In this document: positions 13,597 through 24,147 of the stretch, in pieces | Layout: each line of letters opens with the position of its first letter | Position numbering within the stretch: position 1 is the stretch's first letter | Assembly (NCBI RefSeq): GCF_000022085.1 | Contig: NC_011895.1 | Location: 1 to 37,542, forward strand | DNA from: Methylobacterium nodulans ORS 2060 | Lineage (GTDB): Bacteria; Pseudomonadota; Alphaproteobacteria; Rhizobiales; Beijerinckiaceae | Direction of reading: 5' to 3' | DNA length: 37,542 nt | Program-made: the position numbers and the translations under genes | Notes under the pieces: generated by a model | Databases searched by the model: none | The model's input: the letters and a program-made list of their open reading frames with translations, nothing else | What the model was told of the DNA's origin: nothing

Positions 13597-13626
13597 GTTA
13601 TGGCCTTTTCGCGAAAATGCCATAAC
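13597..13626. repeat. 30-bp palindrome, GTTATGG-N16-CCATAAC (copy C)
   Basis: The centre TTTTCGCGAAAA is itself palindromic, so the whole 30 bp is nearly self-complementary. It lies 34 bp beyond the 3' end of the nucleotidyltransferase-fold gene. Ends and length match the four copies at 14731, 14777, 23854 and 23898. Confidence 0.75.
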
Positions 13627-13659
13627 GGTCATGGTCAGGCCGGTACGCGGCCCACCACA

Positions 13660-14709
13660 TCAGTGCTCATCGAGAGAGCCAACACAATCAACCAAGCGCT
13701 TGTATGAGGACTCTGGGAGTAAGTGGGCTGCCTGTCTGGCATTGGTGCGCCATTTCGGTCCCCTGGACATCACCTCGCTCCACGCGTCCTTCAGTTCGTA
13801 GGGCCTCTGTTTGGTAAGGACGTCGATCAGTTCGGCAGCCTGACGCATGTCCTTCAAAGCCTTAGCTTGGCTTTCTGGAGATCCGAGCCGCTCGCGACTG
13901 ACGATGAGCTTATGGAGGGCATACCGCTCCGGAGCCGGAGCGTTGATGAGGACCCCTGCGCCATGCAGGGCGACGGCCCGGATCTCCTGGTAGAGGAGGA
14001 AATCGAGAAAGCGCAGCGGTTGCCCATCCCCCCGCAGGGCTGGGAGTGGCACAGGCTCGTCCGTATCGGGACCCCGGTTCGGGGCCAGAATGTCGACGCG
14101 GTACTTCGTACCAAGAGCGTATTGTGTAATCCTTGTGCTGTTGCTGACGTGAGGCACCGGCCGGAAATTCGGGTCGACGCTCTTCAGGATCTCTCCGAAT
14201 GGTTGGTCGGTCCGATCCTCCACCGCAACCGAGATACTCGGAAACTGAGCAAGGTCGAGATCCGCGGTGGTGAGATTGCTGGCCCCGAGCTTGACCCCAA
14301 GCAGACCTGAGTAGCACTGGTAAGCGACCGTGCCGACTACAACGGCGCGCATGCGAAACACGCCCGCGTTGGCGAGAGCCTCCAAAACTCTCCCGGTCAT
14401 GGAATCAGGACGGACGAACCCGGCGCGAAGGAGCGCTGCGATCATCTCGCGCCGCTGGCGAAAGTCGTCTTTTGCCTCCTTGTGCGCGTCAATGACCTTG
14501 CGGAGGTCCGGCGTATCCGGACCGACGTACCGTTTGCGCCGCTCATGCTCGCGCTGTGGCTCCTGGAAATACCAGTACCGCCGCCCTTTGATCGTCGACG
14601 TGTAGAAGGAGCCCTCGACGGAAAAGTCCGTTTGAAGCTGGGCGATGGCAGCGCGCTCGACAAGCTCCGCGTAGAGGGTTTGCAGTGCCAGGGACACGGG
14701 TTGGGCCAT
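13660..14709 (-). CDS. GSU2403-family nucleotidyltransferase-fold protein
   Basis: A 349-aa protein. The middle has the nucleotidyltransferase core of this family: VVGTVAYQCYSGLLGVKL followed about 15 residues later by TTADLDLA (the D-x-D metal motif). A later ERYALHKLIVSRERL helix is also typical of the family (PF12281 type, MNT fold as in AbiEii toxins). The N-terminal 130 residues are helical and basic. ATG 14709 is used (MAQPVSLALQ); the frame is open to 14790, but that part runs through the palindromes. It stands alone, without an AbiEi-like partner. A toxin or defence role is only inference from the fold. Confidence 0.88.
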   Translation of the reverse strand: MAQPVSLALQTLYAELVERAAIAQLQTDFSVEGSFYTSTIKGRRYWYFQEPQREHERRKRYVGPDTPDLRKVIDAHKEAKDDFRQRREMIAALLRAGFVRPDSMTGRVLEALANAGVFRMRAVVVGTVAYQCYSGLLGVKLGASNLTTADLDLAQFPSISVAVEDRTDQPFGEILKSVDPNFRPVPHVSNSTRITQYALGTKYRVDILAPNRGPDTDEPVPLPALRGDGQPLRFLDFLLYQEIRAVALHGAGVLINAPAPERYALHKLIVSRERLGSPESQAKALKDMRQAAELIDVLTKQRPYELKDAWSEVMSRGPKWRTNARQAAHLLPESSYKRLVDCVGSLDEH

Positions 14710-14730
14710 CGGGATGTTCTCGCGTGCTCC

Positions 14731-14760
14731 GTTATGGTCACTTTGAGAGGTGACCATAAC
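14731..14760. promoter_or_regulatory. 30-bp palindrome A1 in the leader of the nucleotidyltransferase gene
   Basis: Perfect 11-8-11 inverted repeat (GTTATGGTCAC / GTGACCATAAC), 22 bp upstream of ATG 14709. Together with A2, 16 bp further upstream, it looks like a paired operator; centres are 46 bp apart. Confidence 0.7.
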
Positions 14761-14776
14761 GGTACCATGCCCGCCT

Positions 14777-14806
14777 GTTATGGTCACCATTCAGAATGCC
14801 CATAAC
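14777..14806. promoter_or_regulatory. 30-bp palindrome A2 in the same leader
   Basis: GTTATGGTCA-N10-TGCCCATAAC, one mismatch in the arms. The 10-bp centre CCATTCAGAA is identical in copy B2 at 23898. Confidence 0.7.
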
Positions 14807-14901
14807 GGACCACATGCATTGGTACGTCATCGGGGGATATCGGCGCGAGGGCCGGCCCAGCGTGACCTGGACGAGGGGACCGGCGCGCCGCGGTCGAGAG
14901 C

Positions 14902-21199: not shown

Positions 21200-21446
21200 C
21201 TGTTCGAGAACAGGCCGAGTTGGCGCGGGTCGGGGGCTTCAAGGCGCTGCCGATCAAGGGCGAGCGGTGACGGCAACCGGCAGACCGGTTGCGGATCTGC
21301 CGTCACATTGATGCAAACGGCCCTCTGTAGGCTCAGTCAGGCTGGGCAACCGCCAGCACCCTAATGCCTTCGAGGACCTTGCAGAAACACCATCGAACGG
21401 CGGCACCGGCTTGACAGGCGCGGGTGTATGCGCGATGCCTACACGC

Positions 21447-21475
21447 AAAGAAAAAGGCCGCTCTCGCGAGCGGCC
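21447..21475 (-). terminator. Rho-independent terminator, minus strand
   Basis: GGCCGCTC-TCGC-GAGCGGCC (8-bp stem, 4-nt loop) is followed on the minus strand by TTTTTCTTT. It would end transcripts coming from the right, just after the ORF that stops at 21482. Confidence 0.6.
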
Positions 21476-21481
21476 CGAAGT

Positions 21482-21742
21482 CTAGGGAGGAAACGCCCAC
21501 AGAGGGCAGCACGACCGCAACGCCATCGCGATCGTGCGATTACGTTCTATGCTGCACTGCAACATCTGCCAAGCACAAATGTGCGGCACAGCCGTGCGCG
21601 GAATGCACCCTTTTTGAGCTTGCAGCATGTTTTGTCGCCACTTGGCGCTCTGCGCTAGGGCGTCGGCACGGCAGTTCAAGAGTTCCGCATGCCGACACGC
21701 TTCGCTAACCCTGTCCCGCTGATTTGCACAGGGAGGCAGCAT
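21482..21742 (-). CDS. Doubtful 86-aa ORF upstream of the terminator
   Basis: Reads RHAELLNCRADALAQSAKW then MLQAQKG and a Cys-rich end. It stops 7 bp before the terminator, the only good evidence. No Shine-Dalgarno; its 5' end overlaps the start of the plus-strand gene at 21741; codon bias is weak. Confidence 0.25.
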   Translation of the reverse strand: MLPPCANQRDRVSEACRHAELLNCRADALAQSAKWRQNMLQAQKGCIPRTAVPHICAWQMLQCSIERNRTIAMALRSCCPLWAFPP

Positions 21743-22413: not shown

Positions 22414-23012
22414 GGGCCAGAGCAGTCGAGGTCGCCGGCCCAGGGGTGCAACCGGATCGTCCATGGGTCGACGTCGTCGATCCCAACGATGGGATAGGGC
22501 CTTCGGGCCAGGACGGTCCACCGATGCGGCACCGGTCTGGACGCCACGACGGGATGGGGCCTTCGGACCAGAGCGACCTGCCGGGGCGGCATCGGTCTGG
22601 AGGCCACGACGGAATGGGTTCTTCGGGCCAGGACGGTGTGCCGGTGCAGCACCGGTCTGGAGGCCACGATGAAATGGGGCCTTCGGGCCAGGACGGCCTG
22701 CCGATGCAGCACCGGCCTGGAGGCCACCACGGGATGGAGCCTTCGGACCAGAGCAACCTGCTGGTGCGGCACCGGTCTGGAGACGCGTTCCGCCTGACGC
22801 GAGCGGAGGACGGGCGGGCGCTTCGCCTGCCGCTGGACCGCCTTCGGGGATGCCGGTCCTTGTGGTGGCTCGATCTCCGGCTGGGCAGGCACGTTCGTCT
22901 CGGAAGGGGCTGCGGTGCGGGTCGGCGGATCAGTCCAGCGGGTCTGTGCGGCCAAGCCGGGTACGCCGGAGAGCAGGAGCGCCACCGCGAGGGCAATTCG
23001 GCGTTTCATCAT
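22341..23012 (-). CDS. Secreted protein with 20-residue tandem repeats
   Basis: 223 aa. A Sec signal peptide at the start (MKRRIALAVALLLSGVPGLA, cleavage likely after AAQ) is followed by a Pro-rich linker, then five or more 20-residue repeats of the type RRPHPVVASRPVPHRQVALV, rich in Arg, His, Val and Pro. A non-repeated end contains two Cys (LDCSGPYAFGVRRGLCPW). GGAAGGGG precedes ATG 23012. It should be periplasmic or extracellular. The many His residues could bind metal, and the regular Arg/His pattern could bind an anionic surface; both are guesses. Confidence 0.75.
   Translation of the reverse strand: MMKRRIALAVALLLSGVPGLAAQTRWTDPPTRTAAPSETNVPAQPEIEPPQGPASPKAVQRQAKRPPVLRSRQAERVSRPVPHQQVALVRRLHPVVASRPVLHRQAVLARRPHFIVASRPVLHRHTVLARRTHSVVASRPMPPRQVALVRRPHPVVASRPVPHRWTVLARRPYPIVGIDDVDPWTIRLHPWAGDLDCSGPYAFGVRRGLCPWIPARNPGDDDE
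22490..22790. repeat. Tandem 60-bp repeats inside the secreted-protein gene
   Basis: Units start near 22492, 22552, 22612, 22672 and 22732, exactly 60 bp apart, each with a form of GGGCCTTCGGxCCAGxxC and xxGGTCTGGAGGCCAC. The period equals 20 codons, so copy-number change would keep the frame. Confidence 0.9.
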
Positions 23013-23205: not shown

Positions 23206-23424
23206 ATGCTGACGACCATCGAGATCCTGCCCGAGCAGGCCGAAGCGCTCGATCAGATCGCGGCGCGTGAGCACACGTCGCGCGACGCCCTGGTGCGCAC
23301 TCTCATCGCCGACTTCGTGGCCCAGCATGCCCCGAAGCCGGACATCCAGTCGTTCTTCGGGATCTGGCGTGAGCGCGGTGTCGATGGTCTGGAGTATCAG
23401 GAGCGGCTTCGGGCTGAGTGGTGA
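23206..23424 (+). CDS. vapB: VapB-type antitoxin
   Basis: 72 aa. The N-terminal ribbon-helix-helix (MLTTIEILPEQAEALDQIAA, SRDALVRTLIADFV) binds DNA as a dimer. The C-terminal tail FFGIWRERGVDGLEYQERLR is the toxin-blocking arm typical of VapB partners of PIN toxins. It overlaps the toxin start by 7 nt, so the pair is translationally coupled and should repress its own promoter. GAGG lies upstream of ATG 23206. Confidence 0.85.
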   Translation: MLTTIEILPEQAEALDQIAAREHTSRDALVRTLIADFVAQHAPKPDIQSFFGIWRERGVDGLEYQERLRAEW

Positions 23425-23783
23425 AGCCGCTTTACGACACGAACATCCTGATCGACTTCCTGGCCGGTGATCCTCGCGCGCAGGCCGAGATCGCGCGCTA
23501 CACGGACCACGCGATCAGCGTCATCACCTGGATGGAGGTGATGATCGGGACGACCGCGCAGAATGAAGCCGCCACACGAGCTTTCCTGGGCGGCTTCACC
23601 GTGGTCGACGTCGACAGCGCCGTCCGGGAGCAGGCCGTGAAGTTGCGCCAAGCGCACCGCATGAAGCTCCCGGATGCCATCATCTGGGCCTCGGCCCAGG
23701 TGCACGGCCTCACGCTTGTGACCCGGAACACGAAGGATTTCCCGGCCAGCGCCCCCGGTGTGCGCGTGCCGTACACGGTGTGA
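23418..23783 (+). CDS. vapC: VapC-type PIN-domain toxin
   Basis: 121 aa, a Mg2+-dependent RNase toxin. The PIN acidic residues are present: PLYDTNILIDFLAG, ISVITWMEVMIG, MKLPDAIIWASAQVHG and TRNTKDFP. It starts at GTG 23418 or 23421. The 3' end lies next to the relic leader of the nucleotidyltransferase locus (23806-23977). The likely role is plasmid or region stability. Confidence 0.92.
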   Translation: MVKPLYDTNILIDFLAGDPRAQAEIARYTDHAISVITWMEVMIGTTAQNEAATRAFLGGFTVVDVDSAVREQAVKLRQAHRMKLPDAIIWASAQVHGLTLVTRNTKDFPASAPGVRVPYTV

Positions 23784-23853
23784 CGAGCAGGACATCAACC
23801 AAGGCGTTGGACAGGTGGGTTGGGCCATCAGAATGCCTATGCTCGCGTGCCCC

Positions 23854-23883
23854 GTTATGGGCATTTCTCAAGGTGCCCATAAC
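23854..23883. promoter_or_regulatory. 30-bp palindrome B1
   Basis: GTTATGGGCA-N10-TGCCCATAAC, perfect 10-bp arms. Compared with A1, the inner arm bases changed on both sides together, which keeps the symmetry. Confidence 0.7.
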
Positions 23884-23897
23884 GGGGCACGTATCCT

Positions 23898-23927
23898 GTT
23901 ATGGACACCATTCAGAATGTCCATAAC
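23898..23927. promoter_or_regulatory. 30-bp palindrome B2
   Basis: GTTATGGACA-N10-TGTCCATAAC, perfect 10-bp arms, same centre as A2 (CCATTCAGAA). Centre-to-centre distance to B1 is 44 bp (46 bp in the A pair). It also encodes the C-terminus of the ORF at 23899-24147. Confidence 0.7.
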
Positions 23928-24147
23928 GGACCACGTGCGTTGATACCTCGTTGGGAACGACAGCGGCGCGAGGGCTGCCTGCTCGATGTGGATGTGATGC
24001 AGGGAGCCCGAGCAGCGCTTTTGGGAGGAGGTCAGCGCTCTCTGGGTTGTGGGTACGCCCGCGCGCGATCAGGATCTCGGTCCGAGTGAGAGAGCGCTCG
24101 GTTTGGACGATGCGGGCTTCGATGTGGGAGATCAGGGCGGCGGACAT
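23899..24147 (-). CDS. Small protein downstream of the aldolase gene, 82 aa
   Basis: Helical N-terminus (SHIEARIVQTERSLTRTEIL); the middle is Arg/Pro-rich. The C-terminus (THVVRYGHSEWCP) is encoded by palindrome B2, and the same residues HVVRYGHSEW end a frame at 14784-14981. ATG 24147 lies 28 nt after the aldolase stop on the same strand, so it is probably in that operon. No clear Shine-Dalgarno. Function unknown. Confidence 0.5.
   Translation of the reverse strand: MSAALISHIEARIVQTERSLTRTEILIARGRTHNPESADLLPKALLGLPASHPHRAGSPRAAVVPNEVSTHVVRYGHSEWCP

Follow-up and report, generated by a model that had tools for sequence, protein, structure and literature searches.

Leader palindromes of PF12281 nucleotidyltransferase-fold genes are probable operators for the proteins encoded just downstream

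We analysed the whole of contig C8 (NC_011895.1; 37,542 bp, hereafter the window) from the eight-contig, 8,839,022-bp (8.84 Mb) assembly of Methylobacterium nodulans ORS 2060, in which five 30-bp palindromes of the form GTTATGG-N16-CCATAAC occur together with a gene of the family PF12281 (NTP_transf_8, GSU2403-type). Comparison with related genes makes it likely that these palindromes serve as DNA operators for the product of the adjoining downstream gene, which would repress its own promoter. The gene is best read as a solitary, often mobile nucleotidyltransferase that would repress itself via an N-terminal DNA reader. An initial annotation of the window had suggested an operator for the gene product; the comparative part of this idea holds, as the palindromes are widespread in the family, often doubled, overlap a putative promoter, are rare elsewhere in the genomes searched and track residues 31-72 of the protein, and from this pattern we infer binding and repression.

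Results

The five palindromes were found exactly where the initial annotation had placed them (Table 1), each 30 bp long and with all 14 specified bases exact. When up to three mismatches were allowed, none of 100 dinucleotide-shuffled versions of the window had five or more matches (mean 0.43, largest 3), and a search for GTTATGG/CCATAAC with spacers of 10-22 returned the same five sites as the sole exact copies in the assembly. The symmetry is incomplete, the eighth pair being broken in A2 and one inner pair in C. The centre of A2 lies 46 bp upstream of that of A1, a typical spacing for PF12281 leaders. C agrees with A and B at just 18-21 of 30 positions and matches a palindrome adjoining phzF in another Methylobacterium (locus L008) at 97% over 32 bp; it is probably an orphan site. 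The duplicated block that holds B covers the first codons of the PF12281 gene, so that B is a leader without a gene, and because A and B are one duplicated block, the five sites amount to fewer than five independent observations.

Table 1. Palindromes, gene and protein segments in the window
Feature	Position	Strand	Basis and remarks
PF12281 (NTP_transf_8) gene P0001, 349 aa	13660..14709, ATG at 14709	-	E 7.7e-73, 245.5 bits against a cut-off of 26.3
Nucleotidyltransferase domain	13768..14400	-	domain match and predicted fold; candidate metal ligands D150, D152, D/E206
Codons 31-72, proposed DNA reader	14494..14619	-	predicted three-stranded sheet 34-40, 43-50, 58-64; covaries with half-site
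A1, proximal leader palindrome	14731..14760	-	exact; gene sense -51 to -22; left arm would supply the -10 (TATGGT)
A2, distal leader palindrome	14777..14806	-	exact; gene sense -97 to -68; right arm overlaps putative poor -35 (ATAACA)
C, palindrome beyond stop codon	13597..13626	.	exact; resembles phzF-locus palindrome
B1, orphan copy of A1	23854..23883	.	exact match and duplicated block
B2, orphan copy of A2	23898..23927	.	exact match and duplicated block
Duplicated leader, ending inside first codons of a gene copy since lost or never completed	23817-23975	-	against 14698-14852, 77% identity, 164 columns

We collected PF12281 genes by searches of the family, genus and class, taking no more than 30 loci from each in order of score, and added those of 80 named genome contigs (the best 80 of at least 582 confirmed relatives); 137 of 154 genes were kept after removal of near-identical proteins. 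As the best-scoring genes of each search were taken, closer relatives are over-represented; the script that assigned start codons placed several wrongly (e.g. L040, L047, L054, L059), so that some leaders are mis-scored. An inverted repeat of 26-44 bp with a score of at least 8 was present within -170 to +75 in 120 of 137 leaders, against 32/136 downstream, 21/137 intragenic and 22/132 upstream control regions of equal size under the same criteria. An earlier test (-100 to +5, score at least 10) had given 38/69 leaders, 6/69 downstream, 2/66 upstream and 1/69 intragenic regions, and 1/345 shuffled leaders. At the named loci, 59 of 63 PF12281 leaders carried a repeat, compared with 12 of 51 leaders of the longest other open reading frame (ORF). 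In a later set of 35 loci, repeats were present at 28 and absent from 7; this set comprised a phylum-wide sample of 23, some of which once more belonged to the same order or class, plus 12 viral contigs, and included some duplicates.

In 74 of 120 genes (controls, 1 of 120) the leader palindrome is accompanied by a second one that shares its half-site, nearly always at 34-61 bp centre to centre, and many leader palindromes end 1-20 nt ahead of the start codon. Outer arms are conserved and lengths similar within a subfamily, while the half-site varies between subfamilies: GTTATGGnCA, GTTATACkCA, GTTATAAG, TGTTCAACGA, TACCACACAA, TACCCTACAA and ATTATCC (palindromes of about 42 bp). GTTATGGnCA is common to the window and to L013, whose protein is 67% identical and whose exact site lies at -76 to -47. 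Several of the loci L060-L070 form a second Methylobacterium PF12281 subfamily, which bears the ATTATCC palindromes (about 42 bp long) and occupies a chromosomal position that is partly syntenic. One IMG/VR contig carries two PF12281 genes, L240 and L242, whose leader palindromes are identical.

The sequence of the arms follows that of the protein. Arm distance correlated with protein distance over 105 genes (r 0.40-0.44; largest of 300 permutations 0.109); this and the following correlations are to be taken as indicative because the sequences compared share ancestry. The N-terminal 104 residues, given the C-terminal part, gave r 0.21, which 0 of 300 permutations reached, and the C-terminal part, given those residues, gave 0.047, reached by 32 of 300. 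When whole-protein distance was given, residues 31-72 had a partial r of 0.24 that 0 of 500 permutations reached (maximum 0.128), and later segments gave at most 0.084; residues 1-30 are closer to the leader and yet gave just 0.028, which argues against mere linkage. Among stretches of 20 residues the peak was at 31-50 (0.22), and the largest values not inside 31-72 were 0.112 (21-40, overlapping) and 0.105 (261-280). This pattern suggests that each palindrome is read by the protein of its own gene, via residues 31-72.

The position of the palindromes relative to promoter motifs points in the same direction. In leaders of the GTTAT type, TTG peaks at -21 from the G of the proximal palindrome (18 of 58 leaders; 13 of 49 after near-identical proteins were removed, against a mean of 1.0 and a maximum of 5 at other offsets). 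This TTG could be a -35-like element separated by a 17-bp spacer from TATNNN, in which case the left arm of the proximal palindrome would supply the -10, and with this placement transcription would start near the dyad of that palindrome. The leader in the window itself has a poor -35 only and is without a consensus promoter. As in an autoregulated gene, the conserved palindromes stand at what the motifs indicate to be the gene's own promoter and are rare elsewhere.

P0001 belongs to PF12281, its profile score being above the curated cut-off. The nucleotidyltransferase superfamily is marked by G-[ST], DxD and a third acid. P0001 has these residues and the predicted fold, and across the family G126 is conserved in 105/105 proteins, T or S at 127 in 104/105, D150 in 105/105, D152 in 103/105 and D/E206 in 105/105. 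A structure model (predicted local distance difference test score, pLDDT, 93.8) places a three-stranded sheet at residues 34-64, and the part outside the N-terminal reader resembles the MenT/TglT nucleotidyltransferase toxins when the model is compared with known structures. PDB sequence searches with the full and the N-terminal alignment yielded nothing convincing as a relative (best E values 0.3 and 0.46), and P0001 has no PADLOC and no NCBIfam match. The family is apparently unstudied: the names PF12281 and NTP_transf_8 are absent from the literature searched, though GSU2403 does occur. Its genes are found on plasmids, viral contigs and in varied chromosomal places, and a Caulobacter genome included as a control has one as well (L137).

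Outside these leaders the sites are few. In 111 Methylobacterium genomes the window's site has 11 copies in 7 genomes, five in the window and six at one chromosomal locus beside phzF (a PhzC-PhzF domain was confirmed in all three of the six loci that were scanned). At this locus genome G109 has an intact PF12281 gene (E 7.1e-69) with its ATG 8 nt after the palindrome, and G105 has a remnant of one. GTTATACKCA-N10-TGMGTATAAC, searched in 385 genomes of the class, has 6 copies in 4 genomes, five in PF12281 leaders and one orphan. A regulon was considered and rejected, since with one site family searched in the own and genus genomes and another in the 385 class genomes few sites lie off family genes, the exceptions being orphans.

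Discussion

We propose the following mechanism, in which we infer the binding, the dimer, the repression and the transcription start. The PF12281 protein, probably as a dimer, would read two half-sites of about 9-10 bp through its N-terminal three-stranded sheet (residues 31-72), and would occupy one or two tandem palindromes, the proximal one covering the -10 and the start and the distal one lying at or upstream of the -35. Such occupancy would limit the protein's own synthesis. The C-terminal part would be a nucleotidyltransferase like MenT and AbiEii, whose candidate catalytic acids are conserved, and for such an enzyme tight self-control is plausible.

Several observations weigh against this proposal. 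The phzF-locus palindrome is kept in genomes without the gene: L186, L189, L193 and L200 (the places of L007-L010) have GTTATGG arms, and at L188, L192 and L198 the arms are altered but still match, L192 reading GTCACGG...CCGTGAC with 15/15 pairs intact and 4/14 outer bases changed. Across nine phzF loci without an intact gene, mean conservation was 0.88 for the palindrome, 0.58 for the left flank and 0.80 for the right. Among the 18 phzF loci examined, eight lack the palindrome by the conservation measure, L196 among them having the gene, and L194 is degenerate. Sites without a gene are B and C in the window, L007-L010 and L180, and palindromes without a gene were what the initial annotation had named as evidence against its idea. 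That evidence exists in part: B and L007-L010 lie where a PF12281 gene is or was present in the same or a related genome, while no remnant of one was seen at C or L180. The initial annotation had also taken paired changes in the inner arms as a sign of selection for symmetry, an argument that is weak, as paired changes occur at the gene-less locus too. Symmetric palindromes without a gene could reflect use by another factor, correction through template switching or slow decay.

The persistence of palindromes in genomes that lack a cis-linked PF12281 gene, and the orphans B, C and L180, would be expected if the palindromes were operators of a different, host-encoded or trans-acting regulator. 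We regard this as unlikely, because the arms track the protein of their own gene and, within it, residues 31-72, because the genomes searched hold hardly any sites elsewhere, and because no neighbour gene is conserved. Control of the gene-less phzF site in trans by another PF12281 gene was considered and rejected, as the exact site is single in each genome that has it and G030 and G104 have no PF12281 match; G002, G011, G071, G105 and G106 have a match elsewhere in the genome, so that trans control could operate there.

The palindromes could also function at the RNA level, as hairpins of the leader transcript used in translational control or as an RNA antitoxin, and the initial annotation had offered a paired RNA structure as its alternative. 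Stable hairpins could form, and many palindromes end close to the start codon. We nevertheless rejected this as very improbable: mismatches in the arms comprise 58 G.T and 52 A.C and show no wobble bias, the outer arms are conserved and the lengths similar within a subfamily, and Rfam has no match at the site. A start near the dyad would moreover leave only one arm transcribed, and together with the equal mismatches it argues for a DNA operator.

Still less probable is a mobile element that has the palindromes as its ends or target sites and the gene as its cargo or enzyme. The varied plasmid, viral and chromosomal contexts fit such an element, as do the palindromes on both sides of the window gene and the PIN gene that takes the place of the PF12281 gene at the duplicated locus. 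However, of the 56 genes of the first set whose half-site could be used, the window gene alone is followed by a full second palindrome less than about 1.5 kb beyond its stop codon, the tandem copies stand on the promoter side, the centres vary, and copies per genome are few.

Near-palindromes can be corrected by template switching during replication, which would account for arm changes that come in pairs where the phzF locus lacks the gene, as in L192, if orphan sites had no present function; as the sole source of the symmetry it is the least probable explanation of all, since it leaves the leader position, doubling, promoter phasing and protein covariation unexplained, and it may well act alongside an operator role.

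The closest known systems include, by predicted fold, the nucleotidyltransferase toxins MenT1 and MenT3/TglT. In operator layout the resemblance is to AbiE and an AbiE-like system. AbiE of S. agalactiae (AbiEi/AbiEii) has promoter inverted repeats by the start codon, a transcription start that was mapped to 26 bp ahead of the ATG, and putative -35 and -10 elements with a 17-bp spacer (PMC3985639), so that both systems combine a nucleotidyltransferase-fold protein, promoter inverted repeats and a 17-bp spacer, the PF12281 promoter being deduced from motifs. AbiE differs in being bicistronic, with a separate winged-helix antitoxin that binds the repeats (11-bp arms, N27; PMC3985639), whereas PF12281 genes are without a conserved partner and have their candidate reader in the same polypeptide. 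The AbiE-like Rv2827c-Rv2826c of M. tuberculosis has two inverted-repeat pairs within -1 to -131, overlapping the promoter, which resemble the two tandem palindromes, but its repeats are of 23 bp with a 13-bp gap within the pair and the binder is a separate antitoxin (PMC7319586).

An antitoxin-like partner gene was rejected on neighbour clustering. Neighbouring ORFs of at least 70 aa within 1.4 kb gave a largest cluster of 8/137 loci, in one syntenic Methylobacterium group, and same-strand ORFs of 35-150 aa near the gene gave one of 6/129 loci; partners that cannot be aligned would be missed in both. Because a conserved partner was looked for and not found, we do not claim membership in AbiE/MenAT. 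As a tentative extension, which we think rather unlikely, PF12281 genes might be one-gene counterparts of AbiE/MenAT, toxin-like nucleotidyltransferases with their own DNA reader, in which operator DNA would both repress the gene and restrain the enzyme, and the orphan palindromes (B, C, the phzF locus and L180) would be kept as decoys or antidotes; this would explain symmetry without a gene.

For a scattered family that has apparently gone unstudied, these results provide a regulatory circuit open to testing, map a candidate segment for DNA reading and supply dozens of protein-operator pairs from nature. Should the enzyme be toxin-like, it would be a nucleotidyltransferase of this kind that needs no separate antitoxin for its control, carried by plasmids and probably by phages.

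Other features of the window and related loci

The PF12281 gene has both its flanks duplicated 9 kb off (13406-13522/22224-22337 and 14698-14852/23817-23975), and a PIN-domain (VapC-like) gene at 23418-23783 occupies the second slot instead of the PF12281 gene; the two genes are small modules in equivalent slots. Tandem repeats of 60 bp lie inside the second slot (22486-22782). A Pfam scan of 20 other ORFs of the window left 11 without a match. On a Methylobacterium currus plasmid (L251, 2179-3342) the PF12281 gene, whose leader contains TTGTAGGCA...TGCCTACAA (read by eye), has fixJ and a PAS-domain gene beside it and a Crp/Fnr gene in the vicinity; PAS-kinase and Crp-type genes are also present in the window. 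Rfam matched the suhB/mmgR small RNA (RF00519) at 21440-21514 on the minus strand with 68.7 bits.
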